A DNA stretch of 64,000 nucleotides, from positions 1 to 64,000 of the forward strand of contig NZ_JASIRT010000017.1 in the NCBI RefSeq assembly GCF_030063475.1, in the 5' to 3' direction. Shown piece after piece: positions 15,815 to 63,874 of the stretch. Source of the stretch: Roseomonas sp. E05 (GTDB lineage Bacteria > Pseudomonadota > Alphaproteobacteria > Acetobacterales > Acetobacteraceae). The position numbers and the translations under genes were made by a program. The notes below the pieces were generated by a model. That model saw only the letters and a list, made by a program, of their open reading frames with translations, was not told where the DNA came from and did not search any database. Position 1 is the stretch's first letter. Every line of letters starts with the position of its first letter.

Positions 15815-15948
15815 AAAGCTTGGGGGAAGGAATTCCCCCAAACCCCCATCTTCTTTTTGTCAGTTTGGCGCTGCGCCGGCCGCCGGCGCGGGAAACTGAC
15901 AGAAGAAAGATGGGGGGCCTGGGGGGAATTCATTCCCCCCAGCCTTCT
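15815..15948. repeat. Palindromic intergenic repeat, copy A
   Basis: A large imperfect inverted repeat that begins directly after the stop of the enolase-superfamily gene. The left arm contains a GGGGGAAGGAATTCCCCC mini-palindrome (about 15822-15839), then CCCCCATCTTCTTTTTGTC. The right arm is the inverse, with AAACTGACAGAAG, GATGGGGGG and GGGGGGAATTCATTCCCCCC (about 15921-15940). A GC-rich centre of about 40 bases separates the arms. Related copies occur at 17.8 and 63.8 kb, and a half copy at 57.25 kb. Confidence 0.85.
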
Positions 15949-15983
15949 TGCCACCGCGCCGATTTCCTGATGCGCTTGCCCCC

Positions 15984-16880
15984 ATGCAGATCCATGACGC
16001 CGCGGAAACCGCCCGCCTGCTCGCCTATCCCCGCCTGATCGCGGCGCTGGAGGAGGTCCTGCCCGCCTATCAGCGTGGCGAGATCGTCAGCCCGGAGCGG
16101 CTGGTGGTGCCGGTCGGCGGCGGGGCGGGGATGCTGCTCTCCATGCCCTGCAGCGCGCCGGACCTGATCGCGCACAAGCTGATCACCATCTACAACGGCA
16201 ACCCGTCAGCGGGCCTTCCGGCACTGCAAGGCCAGGTGACCTGCCTGGACGCGACCAATGGCCGCGCGCTTTTCGTGCTGGACGGCCCGACCGTCACCGC
16301 CCGCCGCACCGCCGCCATCTCGATGCTGGGCATCCAACGCCTGCGCCCCGCGCCGCCACGGGCCGCCCTGCTGATCGGCATCGGCGCGCAGGCGCGCGCG
16401 CATGCGGAGGCGCTGCTGGAACTCTTCCCCGGCGTGCGGATTGCGGTGCAGGGGCGGCGTGCTGAAGCGGTACGCGCCTTCTGCGATGCGCTCGGGGGGG
16501 CCGTGCATCCCGCCGGGAATGACGCAGCAGCCTCCACCGAAGTGGTGATCGCCGCCACCAGCAGCAGGCAGCCGGTCTATGATGCGCCTGCGCGGGCGGA
16601 TTGCCTGGTGATCGGCGTCGGCGCCTACCGGCTCGACATGGTGGAGATCGGCGCGCCGACCATCACCGGCAGCCAGATCTATGTGGACGACCCGGTCGGC
16701 GCCCCGGTCGAGGCCGGGGACGTCGCAGCGGCGGGAACGGACTGGGCCAGCGTGCGGCCGCTTGCCACCGCCCTGGACACGCCGCCCGATTTCAGCCGAC
16801 CCGTTTTCCTGAAGAGCGTCGGCTGCGCGGCCTGGGACCTGGCGGCCTGCCGTGCGGCGCAGGCCGCCTGGGGAGGCTGA
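15984..16880 (+). CDS. Ornithine cyclodeaminase/mu-crystallin family protein
   Basis: A 298-aa NAD(P)-binding enzyme of the OCD/mu-crystallin family, which includes ornithine cyclodeaminase, alanine dehydrogenase and Delta1-pyrroline-2-carboxylate (ketimine) reductases. Residues about 110-130 hold the Rossmann motif (ALLIGIGAQARAHAEALL). LMSMPCSAPD-type and AHKLITIYNGNP segments match the substrate-binding half. The ATG at 15984 (MQIHDAAETARLL) is preferred, because an upstream in-frame ATG at 15948 lies at the edge of the repeat. Next to the HcnABC-like complex, a role in reducing a cyclic imine is attractive but inferred. Confidence 0.88.
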   Translation: MQIHDAAETARLLAYPRLIAALEEVLPAYQRGEIVSPERLVVPVGGGAGMLLSMPCSAPDLIAHKLITIYNGNPSAGLPALQGQVTCLDATNGRALFVLDGPTVTARRTAAISMLGIQRLRPAPPRAALLIGIGAQARAHAEALLELFPGVRIAVQGRRAEAVRAFCDALGGAVHPAGNDAAASTEVVIAATSSRQPVYDAPARADCLVIGVGAYRLDMVEIGAPTITGSQIYVDDPVGAPVEAGDVAAAGTDWASVRPLATALDTPPDFSRPVFLKSVGCAAWDLAACRAAQAAWGG

Positions 16881-16887
16881 GCGGCGT

Positions 16888-17520
16888 TCAGCGCCGCGCG
16901 GCTGCCCAGGCCTCGGCCAGACGGTTCAGGCGCTCCTCGGCAGGCGAGAGCTTCGGCGCGCGGACCGCCATGGTGCCGGCGGGGCCTCCGCCGCCCCAGC
17001 GCCGCACCGGGCCGGAATCGACATGGATGAAGCCGTGCTGCGGATAGAGGCCGACGCCGCCGCGCGCGAGGCGCAGCGCCGCCTCCCCGAAGGCATCGAA
17101 CTTCGCCGCCGGCATTTCCACATCGAGCGCGGCAGCGCGCAGATGCTGGCTGTCGCCGGCACCATGCACGGCGCGGTTGGTGGCCGGTGTGCGATAGCCG
17201 GAGAGGATGGCGAACTCGGTGAACTTCTGCTGCTGACCGAGTTCCCAGAGAATATCGATCACCTCGGGATCGAAGGGGCGCACGGCGCCCGTGCGGGTAT
17301 CGGCCAGCACTTCCGAAAGCTCCGCCATCGCGCCAGGATCCACGGACTGGCCGGTGCGATAGATCCCGGAGAACTTCGCGCCGGATGCAGCATGCCGCAA
17401 TTGCAGCCGCCGGGCGGCTGAAAGCTCGGGAAAGCGACGGCGTGTCGCAGCGTGAACAGCACCCGGCGCGGCCAGCATTCCAGCCGCGGCGGTTGCAAGA
17501 AAAAAGATTCGGCGGCGCAT
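16888..17520 (-). CDS. DUF882/YcbK-type zinc peptidase (M15 fold), secreted
   Basis: A 210-aa protein with an N-terminal signal segment (MRRRIFFLATAAAGMLAAPG, then AVHA) and a peptidase-M15/DUF882 domain at about residues 75-170. The likely zinc ligands are His126 and Asp133 (SQHLRAAALDVEM) and His166 (GFIHVDSG), with Arg110 in LSGYRTPATN. This is the arrangement of murein endopeptidases such as MepK/YcbK, so cleavage of peptidoglycan cross-links in the periplasm is likely. An in-frame GTG at 17547 would extend it by nine residues. The ATG at 17520 is preferred because it starts the signal peptide. It is convergent with the preceding gene and unrelated to the catabolic operon. Confidence 0.87.
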   Translation of the reverse strand: MRRRIFFLATAAAGMLAAPGAVHAATRRRFPELSAARRLQLRHAASGAKFSGIYRTGQSVDPGAMAELSEVLADTRTGAVRPFDPEVIDILWELGQQQKFTEFAILSGYRTPATNRAVHGAGDSQHLRAAALDVEMPAAKFDAFGEAALRLARGGVGLYPQHGFIHVDSGPVRRWGGGGPAGTMAVRAPKLSPAEERLNRLAEAWAAARR

Positions 17521-17767
17521 GGCGGCATTGGTAAGCGTGAACGCCACATGCCGGAACCCGGCCTCGCGCGATTGCGAACATTCCTCCCGCCGCAGGGGGA
17601 AGTCTCACGGTAAAGCGAAAAGTCCTGGAAATCAGCGCGATAAGTGCCCGACCAAGTCTACGCGCATCGCGTGTCCTGCCGGACGCGAATCGGGGCCCAG
17701 CCACTCTGGTCAAACATCCGCTGTAGAAGGGCTGCGATGATCTGGGTCAGGTCTGCGGCACAACAGG

Positions 17768-17897
17768 ATTCGGGAGAAGGAGTTCTCTCAACCTCCCCCT
17801 TCTTCTTACTGCAGATTTTCGCGCTTTCTGGCCGCCTACGGAATGTTTGGAGAAAGAAGATAGGGCCTGGGGGGGAATTCCCCCCCCCCCGCCTTCT
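17768..17897. repeat. Palindromic intergenic repeat, copy B (degenerate)
   Basis: The left arm starts at CGGGAGAAGGAGTTCTCTCA, then CCTCCCCCTTCTTCTT. The right arm is AGAAAGAAGATAGGGCCTGG, then a G7AATTC13-like palindrome at about 17870-17890. The layout is that of copy A, but the mini-palindromes have diverged. It lies immediately 3' of the asparaginase gene. The rest of the gap (17521-17767) shows no convincing gene; it only carries the upstream region of the DUF882 gene. Confidence 0.7.
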
Positions 17898-17900
17898 TCT

Positions 17901-18908
17901 TCAGGCAGTCAGTGCCGCGGCCGGGCGCAGCATGCCGACGGTGATGCCGTTCCAGTTCTGCATCTCCGGCGCGGCGAGGGGCGCGAGCACGCTCTCCTCC
18001 GCGCTGTCCAGCGGCAGCAGACGGCGCAGCAGCGTGGCCATGATCACCTCGGCCGCGCGCACCGCGCCGTCGTCACACTTGATGGCGATCCCCAGCCCAG
18101 CTTCGGGCAAGGCCGCGCAAAACACGCCTTCCGCCCCCACCTTCACGAAAGCCCGCTCGCCCAGGGCCTCCATGACGGCCGTGTCGAAGCGCCCGGTGCC
18201 GGCCACCAGGAAAGGATGCGCAGCCACCGCCCGACGCAGCCGCCGTGCCGCCGCTGCCTGCCCCGGCGCCAGACCGCTTCCGGTGCCGATGCGTGCGAAG
18301 CCCTGCGCCAGCGCGCGAAGGGGGATGGCATAGGTGGGAATGGAGCAGCCGTCGATCCCGTGGCTGCCCTCGCGCAGCGGCGTGCCCGTTACCGCCTCCA
18401 GCGCTGCCCGGACCTCGCGCTGGACGCGGTGGGCGGGCGTCACATAGCCGCGCGGATCCTCGCCCAGCCCGCAGGCCAGGCAGATGAAGCCGGCATGCTT
18501 GCCCGAGCAGTTGTTGTGCAGCGGCCCCGGCTCGGCCCCCTCGCAGGCCAGCGCCCGCGCCGCCGGGGCGAAGCTCGGCCAGTGCGCGCCGCACTCCAGC
18601 CCGCCCGCGTCCTGCCCGGCAGCCGCGAGCATCCGCGCTGCCACCGCGACATGGCGCGCCTCGCCGCCATGCGAGGCGCAGGCGAGCGCCAGGGCCTCGT
18701 CGTCCAGCCCGAAGCGGTCGGCCGCGCCGCTCTCGACCAGAGGAAGGGCCTGGATGACCTTCACGGCGGAGCGCGGATAGACCGGGCGGTCGATGTCCCC
18801 GCCCGAGAGCAGAACGCCGCCTTCCGCATCAACGACGGCGAAGGCGCCGGCATGGCAGGATTCCACCCGCGCGCCGCGCATCACCTCGACCAGAACCGGA
18901 TCCTGCAT
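17901..18908 (-). CDS. L-asparaginase II family (Rhizobium-type) protein
   Basis: A 335-aa enzyme of the R. etli-type asparaginase family, distinct from E. coli AnsA/AnsB and structurally related to serine beta-lactamase/glutaminase folds. The conserved RSAVKVIQALPLVES is a Ser-x-x-Lys-type motif near residues 48-62. CASHGGEARH, GPLHNNCSGKHAGFICL and SHGIDGCSIPTYAIPL follow, all diagnostic of the family. It hydrolyses L-asparagine to aspartate and ammonia, probably in the cytoplasm, since there is no signal peptide. It is monocistronic between repeat copy B and the ABC transporter terminator. Its co-location with amine-acid catabolic genes fits nitrogen scavenging. Confidence 0.9.
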   Translation of the reverse strand: MQDPVLVEVMRGARVESCHAGAFAVVDAEGGVLLSGGDIDRPVYPRSAVKVIQALPLVESGAADRFGLDDEALALACASHGGEARHVAVAARMLAAAGQDAGGLECGAHWPSFAPAARALACEGAEPGPLHNNCSGKHAGFICLACGLGEDPRGYVTPAHRVQREVRAALEAVTGTPLREGSHGIDGCSIPTYAIPLRALAQGFARIGTGSGLAPGQAAAARRLRRAVAAHPFLVAGTGRFDTAVMEALGERAFVKVGAEGVFCAALPEAGLGIAIKCDDGAVRAAEVIMATLLRRLLPLDSAEESVLAPLAAPEMQNWNGITVGMLRPAAALTA

Positions 18909-19066
18909 CTATGGCCTCCTGTGGCAGCCGCCGTCTCCGGTGGCCTGCCGGGCCTTCATCCCCGCGCGGCGGCCGCACCGTCAAGCCGCGCCAGGCGGCC
19001 GAACCCGGCGCCCTTTGCCGGCCGCCGCGCCTTTCCCGCTGCCTGGTCCGGCAAGGAGGAGCATTG

Positions 19067-19095
19067 AAAAAGGCCGGGGAATGCCTTCCCCGGCC
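19067..19095 (-). terminator. Intrinsic terminator of the dipeptide-type ABC operon
   Basis: On the minus strand GGCCGGGGAA, a short loop and TTCCCCGGCC are followed directly by TTTTT. This is a strong stem-loop with a U-run 45 bases past the stop of the last ABC gene. Confidence 0.9.
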
Positions 19096-19140
19096 CTCTT
19101 CCTCCCGACATGGCGGCGGCGCAACCGGCCGCCACCCGCC

Positions 19141-20142
19141 TCAGGTCTTGTCGTTCAGATGGCAGGCCGACCGGTGCCCCGGGGCGATCTCCTTCAGCGC
19201 CGGGCGCTCCACCTTGCAGCGCTCGAAGGCATGCGGGCAGCGCGGATGGAAGTGGCAGCCGGAGGGCGGGTTCAGCGGCGAGGGAATCTCGCCCTTGATG
19301 CCGGCGAATTGCTTCTTGCGCACCTCGATGCGGGGCACCTCGTCGAGCAGCGCCTGGGTATAGGGGTGGTTGGCGTTGCTGAAGACCTCCTCCGCCGAAG
19401 CCTCCTCCACCACCCGGCCCAGATACATGATCACGACGCGGTCGGAGAGATGCTCCACCACGCCGAGGTCATGGCTGATGAACAGGTAGGTGAGGTTCAG
19501 CTCCCGCCGCAGGTCCAGGAACAGGTTCAGGATCTGCGCCTGGATCGAGACGTCCAGCGCCGCAACCGCCTCGTCGCAGACGATGAATTCCGGCTGCACC
19601 GCCAGCGCGCGGGCGATGCCGATGCGCTGGCGCTGACCGCCGGAGAACTGGTGCGGGTAGCGCCGCTTCAGCGAGGGATCGAGCCCGGCGCGGCGGAGCT
19701 GGTTGTCAACGTAGCTGTCGTACTCGCCGCGCTTGGTCAGGCCATGCACCAGCGGCGCCTCGCCCACGATGTCCGCCACCCGCATGCGCGGGTTCAGGCT
19801 GGCATAGGGGTTCTGGAAGATCATCTGGGTCTGCAGCTTGGCGTTCCGCGCCTCGGCGCCGGAAAGCGAGCTCAGCTCACGCCCGTGCCAGCGGATCTCG
19901 CCCGCGGTCGCCGGCATGATGCCGGCCACCATGCGGCCGAGGGTGGACTTGCCGCAGCCGGATTCGCCGACGAGCCCGACCACCTCGCCCTTGTTGACGG
20001 TGAAGCTGACCTCGTCCACCGCATGGACCGTCTCCTCCTTCACCGGCACGCCGAGCTTCTTCGCCAGCTTGCCGGCAAAGTCGAGCTTCTTGGAAAAGCG
20101 CTTGGAGACGCCCTTCAGTTCGATGATCGGCGTCGTGCTCAT
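19141..20142 (-). CDS. Dipeptide/oligopeptide-type ABC transporter ATP-binding protein (DppF/OppF-like)
   Basis: The second ATPase of the importer, 333 aa from the ATG at 20142 ([19 protein letters not shown]). Walker A is GESGCGKST. The signature is FSGGQRQRIGIARAL. Walker B reads FIVCDEAVAALDVS, with Ala where the usual motif has Pro after Asp-Glu. The oligopeptide-ABC C-terminal extension with Cys residues (GCHFHPRCPHAFERC...HRSACHL) may bind the Fe-S cluster reported for DppD/DppF. Its start overlaps the previous ATPase stop by four bases. It is the last gene of the operon, followed by an intrinsic terminator. Confidence 0.93.
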   Translation of the reverse strand: MSTTPIIELKGVSKRFSKKLDFAGKLAKKLGVPVKEETVHAVDEVSFTVNKGEVVGLVGESGCGKSTLGRMVAGIMPATAGEIRWHGRELSSLSGAEARNAKLQTQMIFQNPYASLNPRMRVADIVGEAPLVHGLTKRGEYDSYVDNQLRRAGLDPSLKRRYPHQFSGGQRQRIGIARALAVQPEFIVCDEAVAALDVSIQAQILNLFLDLRRELNLTYLFISHDLGVVEHLSDRVVIMYLGRVVEEASAEEVFSNANHPYTQALLDEVPRIEVRKKQFAGIKGEIPSPLNPPSGCHFHPRCPHAFERCKVERPALKEIAPGHRSACHLNDKT

Positions 20143-21152
20143 GCGGCGGCCTCTCCGGCGGGCACATTGTAGGGGAAGAAGCAGCGTGCCTCGCGCCCCG
20201 GCAGCAACTCGCCAAGCGGCGGGTCCTGCTTGCATTTCTCCTGCGCATTGGGGCAGCGGGTGCGAAAGGCGCAGCCCGCCGGCAGGTTCAGCAGCGAAGG
20301 CGTCATGCCCGGGATCTGCCGCAGCGGCTCGCCGCGCTTGTTGCGCGAGGGCACGCTGCCGATCAGCCCGGCGGTATAGGGATGCAGCGGCGCATCGAGC
20401 GTCTCGCTCACCGGGCCGCGCTCGACCACCCGGCCGGCATACATCACCGCCAGGTCGTCAGCGAGGCCGGCGACCACGGAGAGGTCGTGCGTGATCCAGA
20501 TCATCGCCGTGCCGGTCTCGGCGCAGAGCTTCTGCACCTCCGCCAGGATCTGCGCCTGGATGGTGACGTCGAGCGCAGTGGTCGGCTCGTCGGCGACGAT
20601 CACCTCGGGCCGGTGCAGCAGCGCGATGGCGATGGCGACGCGCTGGCGCATGCCGCCGGAGAACTGGTGCGGATAGGCCTTCAGCCGCTCCTCCGGGGAG
20701 GGGATGCCGACCATGCCCAGCGTGTCGCGGGCGCGCTGGCGGGCCTCCTCGCGGCTGACCTTGGCATGCGCCTGGACCGTCTCGATCATCTGCGTGTCGA
20801 TCCGGAGCACCGGATTCAACGTCATCATCGGGTCCTGGAAGATCATGGCGATGCGGTTGCCGCGCAGCTGCCGCATCTCCTCCTCGGAGAGCTTCGCCAG
20901 GTCCTGCCCATGGAACAGGATGGAGCCGCCGGTGATGCGGCCCGGCGCATCCACCAGCCCCAGGATCGAGAAGCCGGTGACGGTCTTGCCGGAGCCGGAC
21001 TCGCCCACCAGCCCCAGCACCTTGCCGCGCCGGACGGTGAAGGAGACGCCGTCCACCGCCTTGACCACCCCGGCGCGGGTGAAGAAATGGGTCTGGAGGT
21101 CGCGCACCTCCAGCACGGGTGACGCGGCGTTGGCGGTCGGGGTCTGTGCCAT
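20139..21152 (-). CDS. Dipeptide/oligopeptide-type ABC transporter ATP-binding protein (DppD/OppD-like)
   Basis: A 337-aa ATPase subunit. Walker A is [10 protein letters not shown], the signature [15 protein letters not shown], Walker [15 protein letters not shown], and the H-loop [14 protein letters not shown]. The C-terminal Cys-rich extension ([15 protein letters not shown]...EARCFFPY) is characteristic of the peptide-importer group. It follows the DppC-like permease by ten bases and overlaps the DppF-like gene. It powers uptake across the inner membrane together with the two permeases. Confidence 0.93.
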
Positions 21153-21162
21153 GCCCTCCCCT

Positions 21163-22098: not shown

Positions 22099-22099
22099 C

Positions 22100-23071: not shown

Positions 23072-23074
23072 CGA

Positions 23075-24664: not shown

Positions 24665-24796
24665 GATTCCTGCCCCCGGAAGCAAACGCCTCTCAATCGG
24701 GCCGGTTTAGCAGAATGCAAAAGGGTCCGCTAGGTTTCAGGGCTTTTTCAAACGCGGAGGCAACGAATGCTCACAGCCGCGCCTTCGCTCGCGCGC

Positions 24797-25621: not shown

Positions 25622-25770
25622 GCACAGCGCCCCACGGCCCTGGCGGGGCCTGCCGGCGCGGTCGGGACAGGCATGGCGGGGACCTCCTTCCGCATCGGCT
25701 GGCATCAAGCCCGGCGGCGCAGTCCGCCGCAAGGGGCCTCTCCGGCACTGTCCGGCAGGCCGGGAACGCA

Positions 25771-53743: not shown

Positions 53744-53920
53744 TACAATCGCGCACTGTACGCCGCGCATGGCTCGCCCGCGTCGCCGTGCCGCGGAAGC
53801 CGTTCCGTAACCCCGGCGCCCCAGACTCGTTTCGCCCAGGCGGCGGCCGGAGAGGGCCGGGAAGCCGTCCAGCCCCGTCGTGGCAATAACGGGTATCGGC
53901 GGCGCGGATGGCATCACGCT

Positions 53921-53949
53921 TTGAATCCTAATAATGAGGTTGCTATCTG
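53921..53949 (+). promoter_or_regulatory. Candidate promoter of the FUSC efflux operon
   Basis: TTGAAT (53921-53926), a 17-base spacer and TATCTG (53944-53949) sit in an unusually AT-rich island about 150 bases before the FUSC start. The rest of the 53576-54095 gap, apart from the divergent rplK promoter, shows nothing recognisable. Confidence 0.55.
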
Positions 53950-54095
53950 TTTGCCATGCCGCGCTCCCTTCCCCCGCCTCCACTGGCCGTTCCGTTCCGC
54001 GCCGGGATCGCCTCGGCAGGTCCCGTACCAGCGCGCCGTGCGCCCGGAGATGCGCCAGGGGACGTCCCAGGGGGCGTCCCGGGGGAATTGCGCTG

Positions 54096-56153
54096 ATGCC
54101 CGGCTTCCCGAGTCGCGCCGACTGGCTCTTCTCGCTGCGCAGCTTCGCCGCGGCGGCCCTGGCGCTCTGGATCGCCTTCTCGCTGGACCTGCCCCGCCCC
54201 TACTGGGCGGTGGGCACCGTCTATATCGTCTCGCAGACCTTCACCGGCGCGCTGCGGGCCAAGGCGCTCTGGCGCCTGATCGGCACCTTCTGCGGCGGTG
54301 TCTTCTCCGTGCTGGCGATGCCGAACCTGATCGACGAGCCGATCCTGTTCTCCCTCGCCGTAGCGCTCTGGATCGGCCTCTGCCTCGCCGCCTCGCTCTA
54401 CGACCCGACGCCGCGCTCCTACGGCTTCATGCTTTCGGGCTACACGGCGGCGCTGATCTGCTTCCCCATGGTGGACAGTCCGGGAACCATCTTCGACACC
54501 GCCATCTACCGTGTCATCGAGACCAGCCTGGGCATCCTCTGCGCCCTGCTGATGCATGGCATCCTCTTTCCCCGCCCCTCCGCCCCGCGGCTGCTGGCGG
54601 CCACCCGCGCCTGGCTGAACGACCTCGCCCGCTACGCCGCCGACAGCCTGACCGCACCGCACGACCCGGTGCGCTTTTCCTCCGAGCGCCGCCGCATCGG
54701 GCGGGACGGTGCCGCGCTGCTCGCCCTGTTCCAGCAGGCCCGCTACGAAGCGCCCCATCGCCGGGCGCAGCTTCTCTGGCTGCCGCGGCTGCATGAGCGG
54801 GCCCGTGCCCTGCCGACCCTGCTGACCGCGATCGGCGAGCGGGTGCGCACCCTGGCCGTGCTGGACCCCTCGGCGGCGGCGGCGCTGCGCCCCCTGCTGG
54901 CCGACATGGCCGACTGGATGGCGCAGAGCATCGACGTCCCCGCCGGCCCCGCCCGCACCCTTTCGGCGCACCGCATGGAAGGCCGGCTGCGGGACGCCGA
55001 GCAGCTGGGCATTCCCGCGGAGCCCTGGGCGGCGCTGGTACGCGAGGGCCTGCTGGAGCGGCTGCGCGAGCTGGTCGAGCAGTGGCGCGAGTGCCGGCTG
55101 CTGACGGAGCGCCTGCTGGCCGAACGGCCGCAGGAAGCCGCGCCCACCGAGCCGGACCGCCCGCCCGGCCATGTCGATCCGCTGCTGGTCGGCCTGTCCG
55201 GCCTGGCGGCGGGGCTTGCCCTGCTGCTGGGCTGCGCGCTCTGGATCGGCACCGGCTGGGCGCATGGCTCCAGTCTGGCGATGATGGGCGCGGTGGCGCT
55301 CTGCATCTTCGGCCAGCTCGATGATCCGGCGCCGGCGCTGAAGAAGTTCATCACCGGCTCGATCCTCGCCGTGGCGATTGCCGGCCTCTACCAGTTTGCC
55401 ATCCTGCCGATGATCGACGGCTTTCCGCTGCTGATCCTGGCGCTGGCTCCGCTGTATCTCGTCGCCGGCGCGCTGATCGCCCAGCCGGCGGTGATGGCGC
55501 AGGCCCTCGCCGTCGCCGTCACCGTGCCGACGGTGATGAGCCTGCAGGAGACCTACTCGGCCTCGGCCGATTTCGCCGCTTATCTGGATGGCGGCTTCGC
55601 CACGGTCGGCGGGCTGATCCTGGCGCTCGCCATCACGCGGCTCGTCCGCTCCTTCGGCGTCGCCTGGCGCGTGCACCGGCTGATGGCGGCCGATCGGCGC
55701 GACCTCGCCAGCATGGCGGAGGGCGGCGCCCCGGCCGACCTGCGCCGCATCCTGGGCGTGATGCTGGACCGCTTCGAGGCGCTGGCCGCCCGCCTCACGG
55801 CCATTGACGCCCAGACCGTGCGCCTGACCGAGTTGGCCGAGCTACGCGCGGCGCTGAACGTGCTGCGGCTGCGCGAGGGCATGGCGGAACTGCCGCGCTC
55901 CGCGCGAGCCGCCACGGAGGCCACCCTGGCCGCGGTGGCGGCCACGGCGCGCGGCCGGCTGCCCGCTCCTGCCCTGCTGGAACGCCTGGACGCCGCCCTG
56001 CAGGCCTGCCTGTCGGCCAGGACGCGGCCCGCCCGCCGCGCCACCCTGGCGCTGTCCGGCCTGCGCCTCGCCCTTTTCCCCGATGCCGCCCCTCCCGCCA
56101 TGCGCTCCGGCGATGCGCCACAGCCAGAGCCGGCCAGGAACCTTGTCGCATGA
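54096..56153 (+). CDS. FUSC-family inner-membrane efflux protein (AaeB-like)
   Basis: A 685-aa aromatic-acid-exporter-type membrane protein. The N-terminal membrane half has [40 protein letters not shown] and a string of hydrophobic segments. A soluble helical region (about residues 170-350) follows. A second membrane block includes [20 protein letters not shown] and a second long soluble tail. The start at 54096 ([17 protein letters not shown]) is chosen because earlier in-frame sequence is Arg/Pro-rich. With the following DUF1656 and HlyD genes it forms an AaeXAB-type pump, known to export hydroxylated aromatic acids. Confidence 0.9.
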
Positions 56154-56359
56154 TTGCGGAACTCGACCTCTACGGCGTCTTCCTGCCCGCCCTGCTGGTC
56201 TGGGCGCTGCTTGCCCTGCCCGTCACGGCGGTGCTGCGCGGGCTCCTGCACCGCCTCGGCCTCTACCGCTGGATCTGGCACGCGCCGCTGTTCGACTTCG
56301 CGCTGTTCGTTCTCGTCCTCGGCGGCATCACCGCCGCTTCGGAGTCCCTGCTGCCATGA
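56150..56359 (+). CDS. DUF1656 small membrane protein (AaeX-like)
   Basis: A 69-aa protein with two hydrophobic segments (VFLPALLVWALLALPVTAVL and FDFALFVLVLGGITAA). [15 protein letters not shown] is the DUF1656 signature start. It overlaps the FUSC stop and the adaptor start by four bases each, so the trio is translated together. Its function in AaeXAB pumps is not established. Confidence 0.9.
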   Translation: MIAELDLYGVFLPALLVWALLALPVTAVLRGLLHRLGLYRWIWHAPLFDFALFVLVLGGITAASESLLP

Positions 56360-57267
56360 AGCCCTTCTTCGCCCGCCTGGTGCGGGTCCTCGTCACCCTG
56401 CTGCTGGTCGGCGCGGCGGCGCTCGTCGGATGGCAGCTCTGGCACTACTACATGGAGGCGCCCTGGACGCGGGACGGGCGGGTGCGCGCCGACATCATCG
56501 GCATCGCCCCCGATGTCTCCGGCTTCGTGGCCGAGGTGCTGGTCTCCGACAATGCCGTGGTGCACAAGGGCGACCCGCTGTTCCGGCTGGATCGCGCCCG
56601 CTTCGCCCTCGCCCTGCAGCAGGCCGCGGCGGTGGTGGAGAGCCGCGCCGCCACGCTGGAGCGCGCCCGCCGCGACGAGCGCCGCTATGACCGCCTGGAC
56701 GAGGGCATCGTCTCCGTCCAGCGGCGCGACCAGGCACAGGCCGAGGCCGCCGCCGCCCAGGGCGCCTGGCAGGAAGCGATCGCCGCACGCGATCTGGCGA
56801 AGCTGAACCTGGAGCGCACCGAGGTCCACGCCCCGGCGGATGGCACCATCACCAACCTGACGTTGCGCCCCGGCGCCTATGTCGCGTCCGGCAGCCCGGT
56901 GATGGCCCTGGTGGATGCCAGCAGCCTGCATGTGCAGGGCTATTTCGAGGAAACCAAGCTCGCCCGCATCCATGCCGGCGATCCTGTCGAGGTGCGGCTG
57001 ATGGGCCTGCCGGACAGGCCCCTCTCGGGCCATGTGGAAAGCATCGCCGGCGGCATCGCCGACCGCGAGCAGACCAGCGGGCTGATCGCCAATGTGAACC
57101 CGACCTTCTCCTGGGTGCGTCTGGCACAGCGCATCCCGGTGCGCGTCAGGCTGGACCAAGTGCCGGAAGGCGTGCGCCTGATCCCCGGCCGCACCGCGAC
57201 GGTGACGGTCATGCCGGACGGCGAAAAGCCGAGCCTCTTCGGCGCCCTGACAAGGCTGGGGGAATGA
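56356..57267 (+). CDS. HlyD-family periplasmic adaptor (AaeA-like)
   Basis: A 303-aa membrane-fusion protein. One N-terminal membrane anchor (LVTLLLVGAAALVGWQLWHY) is followed by YMEAPWTRDGRVRADIIGIA, PDVSGFVAEVLVSDNAVVHK and GDPLFRLDRARF, the first lipoyl half-motif. A helical hairpin with RRDERRYDRLDEGIVSVQRR and the second lipoyl half DGTITNLTLRPGAYVASGSP follow. The start ATG overlaps the DUF1656 stop. Its TGA stop lies inside the half-repeat element at 57252. It bridges the inner-membrane FUSC protein to an outer-membrane channel. Confidence 0.92.
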   Translation: MKPFFARLVRVLVTLLLVGAAALVGWQLWHYYMEAPWTRDGRVRADIIGIAPDVSGFVAEVLVSDNAVVHKGDPLFRLDRARFALALQQAAAVVESRAATLERARRDERRYDRLDEGIVSVQRRDQAQAEAAAAQGAWQEAIAARDLAKLNLERTEVHAPADGTITNLTLRPGAYVASGSPVMALVDASSLHVQGYFEETKLARIHAGDPVEVRLMGLPDRPLSGHVESIAGGIADREQTSGLIANVNPTFSWVRLAQRIPVRVRLDQVPEGVRLIPGRTATVTVMPDGEKPSLFGALTRLGE

Positions 57268-57281
57268 ATTCCCCCGGGCTT
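57252..57281. repeat. Palindromic intergenic repeat, half copy C
   Basis: AAGGCTGGGGGAATGAATTC, then CCCCCGGGC and a TTTTT run, matching one arm of the full repeat. It contains the stop codon of the HlyD adaptor and lies between convergent genes. The perfect GGGGGAAT/ATTCCCCC stem followed by TTTTT would terminate plus-strand transcription. Confidence 0.8.
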
Positions 57282-57285
57282 TTTC

Positions 57286-58203
57286 TTACCGTTGCACCGG
57301 CAGATCCAGCAGATCTGCCAGCTTCCTCGCACTTCCCACCGGCGTCCGCCCGCTGGGGTCGAAGATCTGCTCGGAGAAAGGCCGGGCGGCGTAGCCTTCG
57401 GCATACATCTCCCGGATTCGCAGCCGCTCCACCTCGGAGAGCATACGGCCGCCGCGCTCGGTCAGCGCCACTTCCAGCGGCGGCGCCAGCGTCACCACCC
57501 GAAGCCGCGCGCCCCGCGCCGCGCAGGCGGAGGAAAGGCTGCGATAAGCAGCCTCGTCGAGCGGATAGGCCACCACCATCCAGGGCGCCTGGCTGGTGGC
57601 GATCGCTGCGGTGATCCGCTGCAGCGCGCCAGCCCAGCGCTTTTCGCGCGGCAGGCTCGTCGGCAGGCCGTGCGCGTCGCCCTCAAGGAAGGTCGCGCCG
57701 GGCAGCAGGTCCGTCAGGGCAAGCCCGATGCTGCTCTTCCCACTGTTTATGGGGCCGTTCAGGTGCAGCACCACGGGCTCATGCAGGGTAAAGGCGGCCT
57801 CGCGCTGCCGCAGCGCACGACGCGCCATGAATCCCGCCAGCCCTCCAACCAGCAAGGCCAGGATGATGCCGCCGACCAGCACCTCCTCGGCGGCCGGCAG
57901 GCCGGCGAGCAGCCAGGCCGGCCCCTCCCGGGGCAGGAATTCAAGGCGTGGCGGCAGGATCAGGCGGCCGAGCGCGAACTCGGCCGGCAAAAGAAAGGCA
58001 TGGGTGAGCGGATTGCCAAGCGCGAGGCAGGCCGCCGCCGCAACCGGCAGGCTGCCGCCCAGCATCCAGGCGAAGGCCGCGGCGAAGACGAGGTGCAGGC
58101 CGAAGGCGGGCAGCATGGCCGCCGCGCTGCCGGCCGCGGCCCCGCGGGCAATGCGGCCGGCGCCTTCCGGTGAATCGAGCAAGGCTCTCCAGCGCGCCCG
58201 CAA
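57286..58203 (-). CDS. DUF2062 membrane domain fused to a P-loop kinase-like domain
   Basis: A 305-aa protein of two parts. Residues about 15-125 match DUF2062: GAAAGSAAAMLPAFGLHLVF, LALGNPLTHAFLLPAEFALG and a further hydrophobic segment (VGGIILALLVGGLAGFMARR). Residues 143-300 form a nucleotide-kinase-like P-loop domain. Walker A is GPINSGKSS at 150-158, with FLEGDAHGLPTSLPREKRW in the position of a phosphoacceptor-binding loop and MVVAYPLDEAAYRSL in the middle strand. A shikimate- or cytidylate-kinase-like fold is suspected, but no substrate can be named. The two domains share one frame without a break. Confidence 0.7.
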   Translation of the reverse strand: MRARWRALLDSPEGAGRIARGAAAGSAAAMLPAFGLHLVFAAAFAWMLGGSLPVAAAACLALGNPLTHAFLLPAEFALGRLILPPRLEFLPREGPAWLLAGLPAAEEVLVGGIILALLVGGLAGFMARRALRQREAAFTLHEPVVLHLNGPINSGKSSIGLALTDLLPGATFLEGDAHGLPTSLPREKRWAGALQRITAAIATSQAPWMVVAYPLDEAAYRSLSSACAARGARLRVVTLAPPLEVALTERGGRMLSEVERLRIREMYAEGYAARPFSEQIFDPSGRTPVGSARKLADLLDLPVQR

Positions 58204-58234
58204 CCGCCTGATCAGCGCATGCGGGCCAGACGCC

Positions 58235-58771
58235 TCAGAGCTTCTCGACCTGGCCGTATTCCAGCTCCACCGGCGTGGCGCGGCCGAAGATGGAAACCGA
58301 GACCTTCACGCGGCCGCGCTCCTCGTCCACTTCCTCCACCGTGCCGTTGAAGCTGGTGAAGGGCCCGTCGGCGACGCGCACCTGCTCGCCCACCTCGTAG
58401 ACCACGGCGGGGCGCTTCGGCTTCTCCACGCCCTCCTGCACCTGCTGCACGATGCGCAGCGCCTCGGCCTCGCTGATCGGGCTCGGCTTGTTGCGGGCAC
58501 CGAGGAAGCCGGTGACCTTCGGCGTATCCTTCACCAGATGCCAGGCCTCGTCCGACATCTGCATCTTCACCAGCACATAGCCGGGGAAGAACTTGCGCTC
58601 GGAATTGACCTTCTGCCCGCGGCGAACCTCCGTCACCTCCTCGGAGGGGACGAGGATGTCGCCGAACTTGTCGGCGAGACCCTTCTGCGCGGCCTGTTCC
58701 TTGATCTGCTGGGCAATCTTCTTCTCGAAGCCCGAGTAGACGTGAACGACGTACCACTTCATGTCGGCCAT
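58235..58771 (-). CDS. nusG: Transcription termination/antitermination protein NusG
   Basis: A 178-aa elongation factor coupling RNA polymerase to ribosomes and Rho. The NGN domain has [20 protein letters not shown] at its start and [20 protein letters not shown] in the middle. The KOW domain has [20 protein letters not shown] near residue 140. The first of two nearby ATGs (58771) has the better-placed GGCGGAG. It follows secE closely, but rplK is not the next gene. Confidence 0.97.
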
Positions 58772-58786
58772 GGATCTCGCTCCGCC

Positions 58787-58984
58787 TTACGCGCCGAACC
58801 CGAACAACAGCCCCACCGCGAACTGGATGAGCTTGTCGGTGAGGAGGAAGAACACCGCGGCCACGGCGGACAGCGCCAGAACCAGCCCGGTGGTGATCAG
58901 CGTCTCCTTGCGCGTCGGCCAGGTGACGCGGGCCACCTCCTGCCGCACCTCGCGGATGAACAGCGCGGGATTGAGCTTCGCCAA
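58787..58984 (-). CDS. secE: Preprotein translocase subunit SecE
   Basis: A 65-aa single-spanning translocon subunit. The only start consistent with the family is TTG at 58984 (AKLNPALFIREVRQEVARVT), behind GGGGTAGCGA. Longer in-frame sequence would run into tRNA-Trp. VARVTWPTRKETLITTGLVL is the conserved amphipathic helix and hinge, followed by one membrane span (ALSAVAAVFFLLTDKLIQFA). Confidence 0.93.
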   Translation of the reverse strand: MAKLNPALFIREVRQEVARVTWPTRKETLITTGLVLALSAVAAVFFLLTDKLIQFAVGLLFGFGA

Positions 58985-59084
58985 AATCGCTACCCCAGTT
59001 GAATGGCCGGAAACGCTTCGCGGGCGGCATCCGGACCGGAGCCACCCCGCAAGACCCGGCCTCGCACGGCGAAAAGCGGCACAC

Positions 59085-59161
59085 TGGCAGGGGCGGAGGG
59101 TCTCGAACCCCCAACCTCCGGTTTTGGAGACCGGCGCTCTAGCCAATTGAGCTACGCCCCT
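59085..59161 (-). tRNA. tRNA-Trp (anticodon CCA)
   Basis: A 77-nt cloverleaf on the minus strand. The acceptor is AGGGGCG/CGCCCCT, with discriminator G and an encoded CCA. The D arm is GCTCAATTGGCTAGAGC. The anticodon stem CCGGT/ACCGG carries loop CTCCAAA, and the T arm contains GGTTCGAGACC. It lies 100 bases upstream of secE, the usual tRNA-Trp-secE-nusG arrangement. Confidence 0.97.
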
Positions 59162-59190
59162 GCGCGGCGCCAGCGCTGCGCGAGACCGCG

Positions 59191-59219
59191 TCTATAGGTC
59201 AGCGCAAAGCGTCTGTCGA
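59191..59219 (-). promoter_or_regulatory. Promoter of tRNA-Trp-secE-nusG
   Basis: On the minus strand TCGACA (59214-59219), 17 bases and TATAGA (59191-59196), about 30 bases upstream of the tRNA. The -35 half lies within the last codons of the RDD gene. Confidence 0.75.
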
Positions 59220-59684
59220 GGGGCGCGGCAGCCGAAGCACCACCGTCCCGCCCAGCTTGTCGTGCCAGCATTGCCGGCGCCGGTCCCACAGCATCCAGAA
59301 GTAGCCGAGCCCGAGCGGCAGGGTGGAGAGGATGTAGCCGAAATAGCGCGCCAGCATGCGGGGGAAAGGCGGCCGGCCGCCCGTTCGCGCATCGACGATG
59401 CGCAGGCCCAGCAGCAGCTTGCCCGGCGTGGCCTGCCGGGCCGCCCAGAACAGCAGGACGATCAGCGCCAGGATCACCTGCACCATCAGGTCCGAGGCGA
59501 GGGAGAGCCCATCCTCCCCGAGCGGCAGGCCCTGCAGGGCCCGGGAAAAACCCTGCACGCCCTCCAGCAGGAGGGCCGCCACCCCGAGCAGCAGCCCGTC
59601 GATGACCTGGGCCAGGAAGCGGCGGCCGAAGCCGGCATAGTGCTGGCTAGCCCAGCCGGGTGGCAGCGCAGGGTCGGTGGGCAT
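59199..59684 (-). CDS. RDD-family membrane protein
   Basis: A 161-aa inner-membrane protein. [20 protein letters not shown] contains the Arg-x-x-Asp pattern typical of the RDD family. Two to three membrane segments follow ([40 protein letters not shown]). The C-terminal [12 protein letters not shown] is the conserved end. Its function is unknown; some homologues are linked to Na+/H+ exchange. It is inserted between tuf and tRNA-Trp. Confidence 0.85.
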
Positions 59685-59729
59685 GCGAGGGGTCTCGTTC
59701 TACGGCGGCGCCGGCTGGCGCCGGGGCAC

Positions 59730-59762
59730 AAAAAAAGCGGGCCGCCCGAAGGCGGCCCGCTC
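59730..59762 (-). terminator. Intrinsic terminator after tuf copy 2
   Basis: On the minus strand AGCGGGCCGCC, loop TTCG and GGCGGCCCGCT are followed by a run of T. It is a perfect stem with a UUCG tetraloop about 25 bases past the tuf stop. Confidence 0.95.
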
Positions 59763-59785
59763 CATTCAGATCTCGCGGCCGGCGC

Positions 59786-60973
<1,188 letters not shown>

Positions 60974-61054
60974 CTATCGGTCACCCTGTCGGTCCAGCGC
61001 CGATACCGGCGCACCATAACTGGCCTGGCCCATGGTCCACCGCCCGCTCCGGCA

Positions 61055-61128
61055 TGGAGCGGGTGACGGGAATCGAACCCGCACAACCAGCTTGGAAGGC
61101 TGGGGCTCTACCATTGAGCTACACCCGC
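61055..61128 (-). tRNA. tRNA-Gly (anticodon TCC)
   Basis: A 74-nt cloverleaf on the minus strand. The acceptor is GCGGGTG/CACCCGC, with discriminator T and an encoded CCA. The D arm is GCTCAATGGTAGAGC. The anticodon stem CCAGC/GCTGG has loop CTTCCAA, and the T arm is CGGGTTCGATTCCCG. It is probably co-transcribed with tRNA-Tyr and tuf. Confidence 0.97.
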
Positions 61129-61224
61129 ACTGCACGGCATCCGAAAGGTACGCCGCGCGGTGGCGCCTTACAACCGGGACTTCGCCCCGGCTGCTTCGCG
61201 ACGCCGGTCGCGAGCAGGCCGGTA

Positions 61225-61307
61225 TGGAGGGGGTTGGATTCGAACCAACGTAGGCGTGCGCCAACGGATTTACAGTCCGTCCCCTTTAGCCACTCGGGCA
61301 CCCCTCC
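61225..61307 (-). tRNA. tRNA-Tyr (anticodon GTA)
   Basis: An 83-nt class-II tRNA with a long variable arm, minus strand. The acceptor is GGAGGGG/CCCCTCC with discriminator A. The anticodon stem ACGGA/TCCGT has loop CTGTAAA, and the T arm GTTGGTTCGAATCCAAC. CCA is not encoded; the next bases are TAC, unlike the neighbouring tRNA-Gly. Confidence 0.96.
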
Positions 61308-61336
61308 GCGCTTTCCCGGCCGTCGGGAGCGCCGCG

Positions 61337-61365
61337 CTCTATCCCGTTTTCGTGGGACCTGTCAA
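61337..61365 (-). promoter_or_regulatory. Promoter of tRNA-Tyr-tRNA-Gly-tuf
   Basis: On the minus strand a perfect TTGACA (61360-61365), 17 bases and ATAGAG (61337-61342), about 30 bases before tRNA-Tyr. It is divergent from rlmB. Confidence 0.75.
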
Positions 61366-61441
61366 CGCGCCCTGAACGGATCGCGTGAAGAATCCGCGCC
61401 GGACCGCTTGCGCCCGCGCCGCCGATCCGCAGGATGCCGCC

Positions 61442-62344
61442 ATGTCACGCCCGCCCCGCCGGCCCACCGGCCCACGCCTCCCCTCCCGCAGCCGCGACGA
61501 AGGCCCTGGCGCCACCCCGCATGCCCGCCCGCCCCACGGGGCCGGTGGCGAGCGCTCCTCTCCCCGTGGCCCGCGCCCCGATCCGGCCGCCGCCCCCGAA
61601 CGCCCCGCCCCGCGCGAGCGCGGCGAGCCCGGCACCCACTGGCTCTACGGCCTGCACGCCGTGGCCGCCGCGCTCGGCAACCCGCGCCGGCGCCTGCGCC
61701 GCCTGCTGCTGACCGCCGAGGCCGAGCAGGCGCTGCTCGCCGAGCGCCCGAAGCCCTGGCCCGTGCAGGCCGAGCGGGCGGAGCGCGGCCGCTTCCAGAC
61801 CTTCCTGCCGGAGGATGCCGTCCACCAGGGCGCCGCGCTGCTCTGCGAGCCGCTGCCGCCCACCCCGCTGGAGGAGGCGCTGGCCCGCTCGCGCGGCCCG
61901 GTGCTGCTGCTCGACCAGGTGACCGACCCGCGCAATGTCGGTGCCATCCTGCGCTCCGCTGCCGCCTTCGGCGCCGCCGCGGTGGTGATGCAGGACCGCA
62001 ACGCCCCGCCCGAGACGGCGGCGATGGCCCGCGCCGCCGCCGGCGCGCTGGAGGTCCTCCCCGTGGTGCGCGAGGTGAACCTGGCGCGCGCCATCCAGAT
62101 GCTGCAGCGCGCCGGCTACTGGGTGATGGGCCTGGCCGGCGAGGCGACCACCGAACTGGCCCGGGCCAAGCCGAAGGACCGGCCCGTCGCGCTGGTGCTC
62201 GGTGCGGAGGATACCGGCCTGCGCCGCCTGCAGCGGGAGACCTGCGACGAGCTGGTGCGGCTGCCGATCACCGGCGCGGTGGAAAGCCTCAACGTCTCCG
62301 TCGCGGCGGCGGTGGCGCTCTACGAGCTGGTTCGGGAGACGTAA
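61442..62344 (+). CDS. rlmB: 23S rRNA (guanosine-2'-O-)-methyltransferase RlmB (TrmH/SpoU family)
   Basis: A 300-aa SPOUT methyltransferase. From the ATG at 61442 (MSRPPRRPTGPRLPSRSRDE) a disordered Pro/Arg-rich N-terminus of about 60 residues is followed by the substrate-binding domain (THWLYGLHAVAAALGNPRRR). The catalytic knot has motif 1 VTDPRNVGAILRSAAAFGAA, motif 2 LVLGAEDTGLRRLQRETCDE and motif 3 LPITGAVESLNVSVAAAVAL. It probably methylates G2251 of 23S rRNA with SAM, though other TrmH-family targets are possible. It is divergent from the tRNA-tuf unit. Confidence 0.92.
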   Translation: MSRPPRRPTGPRLPSRSRDEGPGATPHARPPHGAGGERSSPRGPRPDPAAAPERPAPRERGEPGTHWLYGLHAVAAALGNPRRRLRRLLLTAEAEQALLAERPKPWPVQAERAERGRFQTFLPEDAVHQGAALLCEPLPPTPLEEALARSRGPVLLLDQVTDPRNVGAILRSAAAFGAAAVVMQDRNAPPETAAMARAAAGALEVLPVVREVNLARAIQMLQRAGYWVMGLAGEATTELARAKPKDRPVALVLGAEDTGLRRLQRETCDELVRLPITGAVESLNVSVAAAVALYELVRET

Positions 62345-62455
62345 GGAGAACGGCACCCGGCGTTCAGCCGCCGTTAAGGTGTGTGCGGCATCCTCACCAT
62401 GCCGCCACCAAGGCGGATCCGATGCCAGGATGGCCCAGCTTCAGGACCTTCTCCC

Positions 62456-62689
62456 ATGTCCAAACGGCCCATCAACTGGCACGACTTCTCCGAGCAGCAG
62501 CAGCTCGCCCTCTCCCAGGAGGCGCTGCGCCGCGCCGCCGAGACGCTCGCCGGCCATGCCGAGCTGCTGGCGCGCGAGATGGAGGGCGGCGCCCTGCTCG
62601 ACCAGGGCGGTCCCGATGCCCTGCGCCTCTTTGCCGCGGTGGTGCGCGCCACCAGCACGGACGCCTTCGGCCCCGTGCTGCGAGCCTGA
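62456..62689 (+). CDS. Small hypothetical protein
   Basis: A 77-aa mostly helical protein (MSKRPINWHDFSEQQQLALS, then QEALRRAAETLAGHAELLAR). No known family was recognised. The ATG at 62456 is preferred over one at 62381 because the residues after it have normal composition. It is followed 11 bases later by another short gene with GAGGAGAG before its start, so the two probably form one unit. Confidence 0.6.
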   Translation: MSKRPINWHDFSEQQQLALSQEALRRAAETLAGHAELLAREMEGGALLDQGGPDALRLFAAVVRATSTDAFGPVLRA

Positions 62690-62700
62690 GGAGAGACGCG

Positions 62701-62889
62701 ATGCCCGACGCCACCGAGATCCGCATCCTCACCCCCGCCCAGGAGACCCAGGCGCGCCTCCTGGCGCGGCAGAACGCGCTCGATGTCCACTTCCGCCCGC
62801 TGGAGGAGTTCCTCCCCGGCGAGGGCACGGGCGCCACCGTCGCCATCGCCCGTGGCACGGCCGCGGCGGCCTGGCTTGCCACCTTTTAG
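62701..62889 (+). CDS. Small hypothetical protein
   Basis: A 62-aa protein (MPDATEIRILTPAQETQARL, then LARQNALDVHFRPLEEFLPG). No family was recognised and there is no signal peptide or membrane segment. Its good ribosome-binding site (TGAGGAGAGACG) and tight spacing to the previous gene support expression as a pair. Confidence 0.55.
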   Translation: MPDATEIRILTPAQETQARLLARQNALDVHFRPLEEFLPGEGTGATVAIARGTAAAAWLATF

Positions 62890-63096
62890 CACTTACGAAC
62901 CAGGGACGCGAAGATTCAGCCATTCTTCACGTCCACCGCTTGCACGCCGCCGATTGCCGGCCTACCGACGCCCTGGTAACAGGAGTGCCGGCCATGGGCC
63001 TGAAGACCGCTGCCAGAAAGGCGCCGCCGAGGGGAGAACCCGGCCAGGCCTGCTGCCGCGCACTGCCGCTCCCCGCCTGAGCCGCGACCGCTCCCG
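62890..63096 (+). other. Gap with one possible 28-codon reading frame
   Basis: No recognisable gene. A short frame at 62994-63080 (MGLKTAARKAPPRGEPGQAC...) has AGGAG eight bases upstream of its ATG, but there is no other support for it. Confidence 0.2.
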
Positions 63097-63726
63097 ATGG
63101 CATGGTTCCGGTGGCTGCTGCGCATCGCCCTCTGCGGTGCGCTGCTGGGGCTGGGTTTCTTCCTGGCAGCAACCGTCATGGCCGGAAATGGCGGCACCAC
63201 GCCCCTGCCGCTCGGCACCGCACTGGATGATGTCGCGCCCTCCACGCTGGGGCGTGCGGCGGGCCTTGGCGCGGCGGCGCTGCTGGTGGCGCAGTTGCTT
63301 TTGCGCCCGATTCCTTTCTGGACCCGCCGCGCCCTGGCCGGGGGGCTGACCGTCGGGGCCGTTGCCATCGTCGCCTTCCACCAGTCCAGTCTGTTCGTGC
63401 TGCATCAGGTGTTCCATCTGGTGCCGGAGCGGGGCTTCCTGTTTGCGCCGCTGCCCTCCAGCAACCTGCCGGCGCTCTATGGGCTGATGCTGGCCGGCGC
63501 CCTGGGCGGCGGTGCGCTGGCCCTGGCGCTGCGCGCCGTGCACGCCCTGCCGGACCTGCTGACAGGCTTCCTCTTCGGCGCCTTCGGCCTGAGCCTGTTC
63601 AGCGTCCTGCCGCGCGTGCCGGGCTTCGACGACGTCTGGTGGCAGTGGCTCGTCATCAATGGCGGCTGGGGCTGGGGCACCGCTTTCCTGATGCGCCCCC
63701 TGGCCCTGCGGGGCGGCGGGGAATGA
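63097..63726 (+). CDS. Hypothetical integral membrane protein
   Basis: A 209-aa protein with about five hydrophobic segments: LLRIALCGALLGLGFFLAAT, AAGLGAAALLVAQLLLRPIP, AGGLTVGAVAIVAFHQSSLF, LPALYGLMLAGALGGGALAL and LPDLLTGFLFGAFGLSLFSV. FHQSSLFVLHQVFHLVPERG and VPGFDDVWWQWLVINGGWGW are distinctive polar loops. The family could not be named. Repeat copy D follows directly. Confidence 0.75.
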   Translation: MAWFRWLLRIALCGALLGLGFFLAATVMAGNGGTTPLPLGTALDDVAPSTLGRAAGLGAAALLVAQLLLRPIPFWTRRALAGGLTVGAVAIVAFHQSSLFVLHQVFHLVPERGFLFAPLPSSNLPALYGLMLAGALGGGALALALRAVHALPDLLTGFLFGAFGLSLFSVLPRVPGFDDVWWQWLVINGGWGWGTAFLMRPLALRGGGE

Positions 63727-63739
63727 GGGGCACACCGGC

Positions 63740-63874
63740 AAGGCTGGGGGAATGAATTCCCCCAGGCCCCCTTCTTTTCCCTTCGAGTCTTCACGCATGC
63801 TGGCGGCCCGCGCAGCCCCGAACTGACAGAAGGAAGAAGGGGGGCTCGGGGGGAATTCATTCCCCCCGACCTTC
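63740..63874. repeat. Palindromic intergenic repeat, copy D
   Basis: The left arm is AAGGCTGGGGGAATGAATTC, then CCCCCAGGCCCCCTTCTTTT. The right arm is the inverse, with AACTGACAGAAGGAAGAAGG, GGGGCTC and GGGGGGAATTCATTCCCCCC, then GACCTT. Both mini-palindromes are perfect. The right arm keeps AACTGACAGAAG as in copy A, while the left counterpart of that segment is lost. It lies just 3' of the membrane-protein gene. Confidence 0.85.

Follow-up and report, generated by a model that had tools for sequence, protein, structure and literature searches.

A clade-specific palindromic repeat family docked at gene 3' ends in Roseomonas sp. E05 and its putative role as a bidirectional terminator

Copies of the repeat in the window

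The window analysed here comprises the first 64,000 nucleotides of contig NZ_JASIRT010000017.1 of Roseomonas sp. E05 and contains several copies of a dispersed, non-coding repeat, in which two short palindromic arms in inverted orientation flank a variable core. A preliminary description made from the letters of this window had proposed a dispersed palindromic family with two inverted arms at gene 3' ends, which is borne out across the genome, and the anatomy of the element suggests a putative bidirectional terminator. A scan of the window with the 18-mer arm palindrome (≤3 mismatches, 100 shuffles as baseline) returned 11 strand-hits, with 0.05 expected.

Full copy 1 (15813..15948, no strand assigned) scores 137.6 bits against the family model and lies directly 3' of the stop codon of an enolase-like gene (14644-15813, plus strand), which adjoins it, while the gene beyond it, a member of the ornithine cyclodeaminase family, starts downstream. 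Its left arm palindrome, GGGGGAAGGAATTCCCCC, is located at 15822..15839 (plus strand), 8 bp past the stop, and its right arm palindrome in reverse orientation at 15922..15939 (minus strand). Full copy 3 (63737..63875, no strand assigned; 119.3 bits), with arm palindromes at 63746..63763 (plus strand) and 63849..63866 (minus strand), follows an open reading frame (ORF) without Pfam match (63097-63726, plus strand), and both scores are to be read with the knowledge that copies 1 and 3 belonged to the 43 copies from which the model was built. Copy 2 (17768..17897, no strand assigned) is degenerate, as only its right palindrome (17871-17888, 3 mismatches) passes the mismatch limit; this palindrome lies 12 bp past the stop of an L-asparaginase II-like gene (17901-18908, minus strand), which adjoins the right end of the copy. 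Finally, a single arm (57249..57281, plus strand; palindrome 57258-57275) is located between convergent genes, an HlyD-like gene (56083-57267) and a DUF2062 gene (57286-58203, minus strand), whose stop lies 10 bp beyond the arm.

All four places listed in the preliminary description are thus real, comprising two full copies, the degenerate copy at 17768-17897 and one single arm. The statement that every copy starts at or just after a stop codon holds for copy 1; copy 2 instead follows a minus-strand stop at its right end, and the palindrome of copy 3 lies 19 bp past the stop. That one copy contains the stop codon of the HlyD adaptor gene was correct, since the loop TGA of its palindrome (57265-57267) ends this gene. 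Between 17889 and 57257, about 39 kb of mainly tightly packed minus-strand genes hold no copy at ≤3 mismatches, and a 4-mismatch match at 19075 within this region may be a decayed arm.

Copy number and taxonomic distribution

The 5.73-Mb source genome contains 249 exact palindromes with the loop TGAA or GGAA (125 and 124 by strand). With ≤1 mismatch, 144 and 145 matches were obtained on the two strands, each site being counted once as in the exact count, and with ≤2 mismatches 229 and 251 strand-hits, in which exact TGAA sites are counted twice. Reversed-pattern controls returned 0 at all three settings. A covariance model of 43 copies yielded at least 150 accepted candidates, many places being matched on both strands. 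Detailed counts were made in a 1.403-Mb sample, about a quarter of the genome, in which the 119 elements comprise 75 full copies and 44 arms without a partner. The preliminary description had named the finding of only a few copies as an outcome that would speak against a family; 249 exact palindromes genome-wide and 119 elements in 1.40 Mb were found. Full copies are 113-121 bp long in 35 of 60 cases (range 81-195, first 0.84 Mb), and their density is uneven, with 49 elements in the 519 kb of C1 and 2 in the 80 kb of C6.

At ≤1 mismatch, 16 of 17 genomes of the genus (source included) carry matches, ranging from 0 to 289 sites per genome, as do 14 of 299 sampled genomes of the family, again with the source included. 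In the class, the exact motif was found in 1 of 289 sampled genomes, namely the source genome itself. Among the matches listed, named records with the exact motif belong mostly to Pseudoroseomonas/Roseomonas, and single matches occur in two metagenome bins from other phyla. Among the sampled genomes, the family is almost confined to the genus and a small number of relatives. One relative (G016) has zero palindrome matches at ≤1 mismatch, and 14 of its convergent gaps in 140 kb are filled by other sequences.

Position relative to stop codons

Genes were called with a hexamer-based caller, so that starts and small genes are approximate. In the sample, 140 of 194 arms face a stop codon, and the palindrome lies 4-16 bp past the stop in 107 of these 140 (median over all 140, 10 bp), a range into which 6.7% of random intergenic 18-mers fall, whether stop-facing or not. 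Of the remaining stop-facing arms, 6 have a loop TGA that is itself the stop, 19 lie 17-40 bp past the stop and 8 farther away. When gaps of 20 bp or more are counted, an element is present in 56 of 154 convergent gaps, 56 of 491 tandem gaps and 5 of 169 divergent gaps (convergent vs divergent, p = 1e-15), and 4 of 119 elements lie inside predicted genes, one of them because its loop holds the stop. The preliminary description had taken a lack of enrichment at gene 3' ends as a further point against its proposal, and the arms instead show a strong association with these ends.

In convergent pairs both arms dock, such that both ends of the element lie about 9 bp from both stops. The left share of the slack has a standard deviation of 0.135, compared with 0.289 if it were uniform (29 of 38 little-slack convergent full copies). 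Near-consensus arms are the tightest, 63 of 69 being in range compared with 18 of 29 of the most diverged, which contradicts an origin of the spacing by slow deletion. In other genomes (105 loci, 36 elements at locus ends being left out of the count) docking is looser than in the source genome, with 45 of 76 stop-facing arms within 4-16 bp, 26 at 17-40 bp and 5 elsewhere. One of 13 predicted tRNA genes, called tRNA-Sec by ARAGORN, ends 15 bp from the full copy C1:433102-433232; this copy does not show that an element can do without a stop codon, as its opposite end is located 7 bp past one.

Sequence anatomy and predicted termination

The element consists of an A-tract, GGYY, the hairpin G5AA-NGAA-TTC5, RRACCCCC, a pyrimidine tract and a variable core, followed by the mirror image. 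A single consensus accommodates the 49 copies of standard length among the 75 full copies, and 43 of these 49 were realigned. The two arms of a copy are unlike, with CTTCGRGTTT beside the core in one and CTGTCAGTTT in the other (by eye), and in the pyrimidine tract they are less alike than in all 500 shuffles. Orientation is clear in 38 of 75 copies and has no evident bias relative to gene direction. In other species, the same ends enclose unrelated cores, the elements being 223-267 bp long, and one of these cores recurs in 17 of 20 aligned elements (by eye). In some arms, a palindromic module of 22 bp (GGTCAAACCTATAGGTTTGACC; in other species AAACGTATACGTTT) replaces the ACCCCC tract (C1:364092, C1:400724, C1:427845, C1:433192, C5:155521 and C10:123356; also L114 and L159).

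In 147 arms, each position of the hairpin sequence G5AA-GAA-TTC5 is 93-100% fixed. This fixity is partly built in, because arms were gathered with ≤3 mismatches (≤4 in the comparison with a relative) to the 18-mer, a selection that hairpins with other stems would escape. Match counts thin out towards the mismatch limit of the search. Each arm is predicted to fold on its own into a short G/C-rich hairpin, and these local hairpins are paired in 96.0% of cells (92.2% shuffled), with 48 double-changed cells compared with 14.5 in shuffles, none of 500 being as high. This covariation is located mostly at pairs just outside the 18-mer used in the search, where the -2/-1 pairs covary in 337 of 388 cases (shuffled maximum 231). 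Further pair types are less telling, as 56 of 500 shuffles reach the observed number. Two larger structures, a middle stem and a long hairpin formed by the two arms together, were rejected, as covariation for each is at or below that of shuffles. Two of the three window copies nevertheless form strong long hairpins (z-scores -9.9 and -7.2; copy 2 is not unusual at -1.5), and folding energy of single copies is therefore misleading here. A scan for arms with a long alternative loop found 3 in the source sample (2 read as such) and 0 in the relative.

Read outward from the core, the hairpin is followed immediately by a U-tract, the form of an intrinsic terminator. In the 147 arms, the outward U-tract directly adjoins the hairpin base and a C-tract lies directly on the inner side. 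Between 76 and 131 of the 147 arms have A at each of positions -9 to -5, corresponding to U on the outward strand. Convergent and tandem arms have on average 3.2-3.9 A residues at these 5 positions, whereas A makes up 16% of intergenic DNA. In addition, mismatches that give G-U pairs in the outward RNA outnumber those of the inward RNA by 60 to 27 in the source genome (p = 5e-4) and by 80 to 39 with a relative added; convergent arms taken from both genomes together show a significant bias (15:37). Covarying G/C-rich arm hairpins with U-tracts are present on both strands. A transcript leaving a gene would pass the near arm before its predicted stop at the far one, and one copy between convergent genes could therefore serve both strands. 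On this basis, we consider it moderately probable, and the likeliest reading, that this clade-specific, dispersed non-coding repeat family acts as a bidirectional intrinsic terminator. The preliminary description had suggested such a function, and terminator-like anatomy was indeed found on both strands, termination itself being a prediction from sequence.

Several observations weigh against this reading. In tandem gaps, single arms face the gene by their entering side at least as often as by the other (14 vs 7), which pure outward termination does not predict. Single arms also largely keep the pyrimidine tract, with 38 of 44 lacking a partner tract, and in tandem full copies conservation does not differ between the near and the far arm (35 pairs). 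Divergent and intragenic arms have a weaker outward A-tract (2.75 of 5 in 8 arms and 2.25 of 5 in 4 arms, respectively), and neither tandem arms alone (14:22 and 5:13, source plus relative) nor the relative alone (12:20) show a significant wobble bias. Lastly, a simple terminator scan around copies 1 and 2 detected 3 sites, of which two coincide with family palindromes, compared with 1.2 in shuffled sequence.

The placement of single arms in tandem gaps and the kept pyrimidine tract therefore leave room for a Rho-dependent or 3'-protecting role. An alternative reading, which we regard as rather unlikely, is that the inward orientation is the working one: the hairpin, about 10 nt past the stop, would protect the 3' end, and the pyrimidine tract after it, left single-stranded, would be a Rho- or Hfq-type landing site ending transcription. 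Most stop-facing arms indeed present hairpin, C-tract and T-rich tract in the sense of the gene, most partnerless single arms have the same order, and the single arm C5:131045 folds with its pyrimidine tract unpaired. Mean mismatches in the pyrimidine tract amount to 2.6-4.5 of 15 in single arms and 2.6-3.5 in full copies. The wobble bias towards the outward strand (60:27) and a U-tract that directly adjoins the hairpin base solely on the outward side argue against the inward orientation.

It is quite unlikely that the fixed hairpin is primarily read by a sequence-specific protein, with termination as a side effect. DNA gyrase, IHF and others are reported to bind the bacterial interspersed mosaic elements (BIMEs), and a protein reader would accord with a stem that is near-invariant while the next two pairs change freely with compensation, and with orthologous copies that are nearly randomised outside the hairpin at about 90% identical flanks. 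However, the fixity of the stem is partly a product of the ≤3- or ≤4-mismatch collection, no candidate reader was found and the U-tract would be unnecessary for such a function.

Evolution and mode of spread

For 25 of the 119 source elements, colinear flanks were available in a relative (G162), the flanks of 91 being absent from the data and those of 3 being apart or weak. At 19 of these 25 sites a family palindrome is kept (≤4 mismatches) and at 6 it is not; conversely, of 33 elements of the relative, 17 sites are occupied and 2 empty in the source genome, 12 are flankless and 2 odd. In 27 orthologous arms with flanks about 90% identical, agreement at positions -3 to -1 is 0.53 compared with 0.39 for random pairs, and agreement within the hairpin is 0.90 for both orthologous and random pairs, to which the selection by ≤3-4 mismatches contributes. 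Outside the hairpin, orthologous arms are hence only slightly more alike than random pairs. As the palindromes are kept but the surrounding arm sequence is nearly randomised, sites are inherited while the remaining sequence is replaced quickly. There is no sign of a very recent burst, since pairwise identity among 43 copies averages 75% with a maximum of 90%. Their sequences show that the copies descend from common ancestors, and we infer that they are retained at places where they end genes.

As a test for target-site duplications, direct repeats of 4-9 bases flanking the 75 full copies (free offsets) were counted and were not in excess, and a planted control was recovered in 20 of 20 cases; 1 of 144 fixed-offset combinations stands out, with 3 seen compared with 0.2 expected. 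The elements might nevertheless be mostly neutral relics of a MITE- (miniature inverted-repeat transposable element) or ERIC-like (enterobacterial repetitive intergenic consensus) element moved by a lost or distant transposase, their 3' location being the place of least harm, an account that we consider doubtful. It agrees with the single consensus for 49 copies with two arms of different type, with the same-ended elements of related species that enclose unrelated cores and with site numbers that vary from 0 to 289 within the genus. Against it stand the target duplications not being in excess, the narrow split of slack that places both ends about 9 bp from both convergent stops, and the tightest spacing being that of near-consensus arms.

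Between the arms of 47 pairs 200-6000 bp apart no recurring ORF, and hence no autonomous partner, was seen save for one contig present twice, a weak test as only 10 of the 47 exceed 400 bp, and one that was not a whole-genome hunt. Insertion into the loop of a pre-existing terminator, which should leave the two arms with complementary outer dinucleotides, was rejected, as these are complementary in 77 of 150 cases, compared with 84.7 in shuffled sequence. Copies may have spread via a trans-acting factor or by copying between sites, and the G5/C5 sequence, being almost invariant, hints either at a reader or at ongoing copying out of one shared source. In an unlikely variant, the fixed hairpin would be a sequence-specific gene-end signal read by a clade-specific RNA- or ssDNA-binding factor that also places new copies behind stops, allowing spread without either a target duplication or a REP-associated tyrosine transposase (RAYT; REP, repetitive extragenic palindromic sequence).

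Other repeats were encountered at similar places. A unit of about 300 bp with ends like CCTGTCCTCA and TGAGGACAGG seems to be inserted in the loop of family palindromes (by eye) at the G162 sites orthologous to C5:153136 and C5:160496 (L179) and at about 7.2 kb of g162C3b (L196); it itself contains a family copy and suggests a second element targeting family palindromes. A second dispersed family of the type GAACGGGATCTGCTCTAG / AGAGCATTTTCCGTTCG is located in convergent gaps (C1:16145-16252, C1:44828-44950, C1:339273 and others), where in several cases the adjacent gene appears to take its stop codon from the TAG end of the repeat. Its 17-mer end has 10 matches in the 1.403 Mb of source genome, and a similar sequence is present in G016 (L224-L225), in which the main family is missing. 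Gene junctions also contain a third family, in which GGGGTGGTTCAACCACCCCGG is accompanied by CAGGGGGCAGCGCCCCCTGG nearby (the gaps at C1:160706, C1:214177 and C1:303234).

If the elements act as bidirectional terminators, the roughly one third of convergent junctions occupied in the sampled quarter of the genome, often with docking within about 10 bases of both stop codons, would form a sequence-uniform, genome-wide 3'-end system. This would open the questions of how a RAYT-free non-coding repeat spreads to gene ends and whether it was domesticated as a host terminator, which the variation in site number across the 17 genomes of the genus makes testable by comparison.

Comparison with known repeat systems

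The preliminary description knew of no named family that matched the repeat, which holds for Rfam 15 above threshold and for the open-access papers listed in literature searches. In the window, Rfam matches above the gathering threshold were limited to 3 tRNAs, a search with 12 of 30 source-genome loci gave 10 weak matches, all below gathering, and none of the open-access papers listed deals with a family of this kind from Roseomonas or Acetobacteraceae. Its suggestion of a REP/BIME- or MITE-like element was right as to the BIME-like architecture of paired inverted palindromes that are extragenic and high in copy number; MITE status is not supported, target-site duplications not being in excess, and membership of the REP family is disfavoured. 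REPs are defined by a GTAG or CGTC tetranucleotide at the palindrome end (PMC3733652, PMC2817692). The position-wise composition of 147 arms holds no such tag, with AAAGGYY outside and RRACCCCC inside. The linked REP-type Y1 transposase for which the preliminary description proposed a search (PF01797) was absent from the source genome (0 of 1) and from 11 other carriers (0 of 11), 11 more matching genomes lying outside the test, while the control gave matches in 5 of 14 genomes. Spread by a present-day RAYT is therefore very improbable, even though architecture, copy number and convergent or tandem location resemble those of REPs as portrayed in PMC3733652. The family is best read as BIME/ERIC-like and RAYT-independent.

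Palindromic families without a dedicated transposase have been reported among the CGTC-tagged REPs (PMC3733652), with which the family here shares this lack but not the CGTC tag. In Neisseria and Pasteurellaceae, according to PMC1852404, DNA uptake sequences form bidirectional terminators. These resemble the elements here in the G/C-rich hairpin with an A-tract before and a T-tract after it, in the location between convergent genes and in one hairpin sequence repeated through the genome, and differ in that here two hairpins and a core make up one homologous repeat and most half-motifs are not enriched in genes. An origin as paired uptake sequences, to which the fixed hairpin repeated in terminator-like places would lend itself, is extremely improbable. 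Two half-motifs exceed expectation in genes (GGGGAATT, 10 vs 3; CCCCCTTC, 66 vs 35), but the others are near chance in 1.24 Mb of coding sequence (GGGGGAA, 62 vs 54; GGGGGAAT, 10 vs 7; GAATTCCCCC, 1 vs 0.35), and the elements hold 309, 216 and 149 of these latter three, respectively.

ERIC sequences are imperfect palindromes of about 130 bp, intergenic and clade-limited. They have no known transposase and are probably unrelated in sequence to the family here. They match it in size, palindromic form, intergenic place, clade limits and lack of a transposase; in contrast, the arms of the family here are predicted to fold separately and carry terminator U-tracts. The BIME/REP elements (palindromic units) of enterobacteria and pseudomonads likewise share high copy number, inverted palindromes with a variable spacer and a placement in convergent and tandem gaps, close to gene 3' ends. 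The family described here differs from these in having neither a GTAG/CGTC tag nor a RAYT in the 12 carriers tested, and in its conserved outer A/U-tracts, inner pyrimidine tract and tight docking at stop codons.

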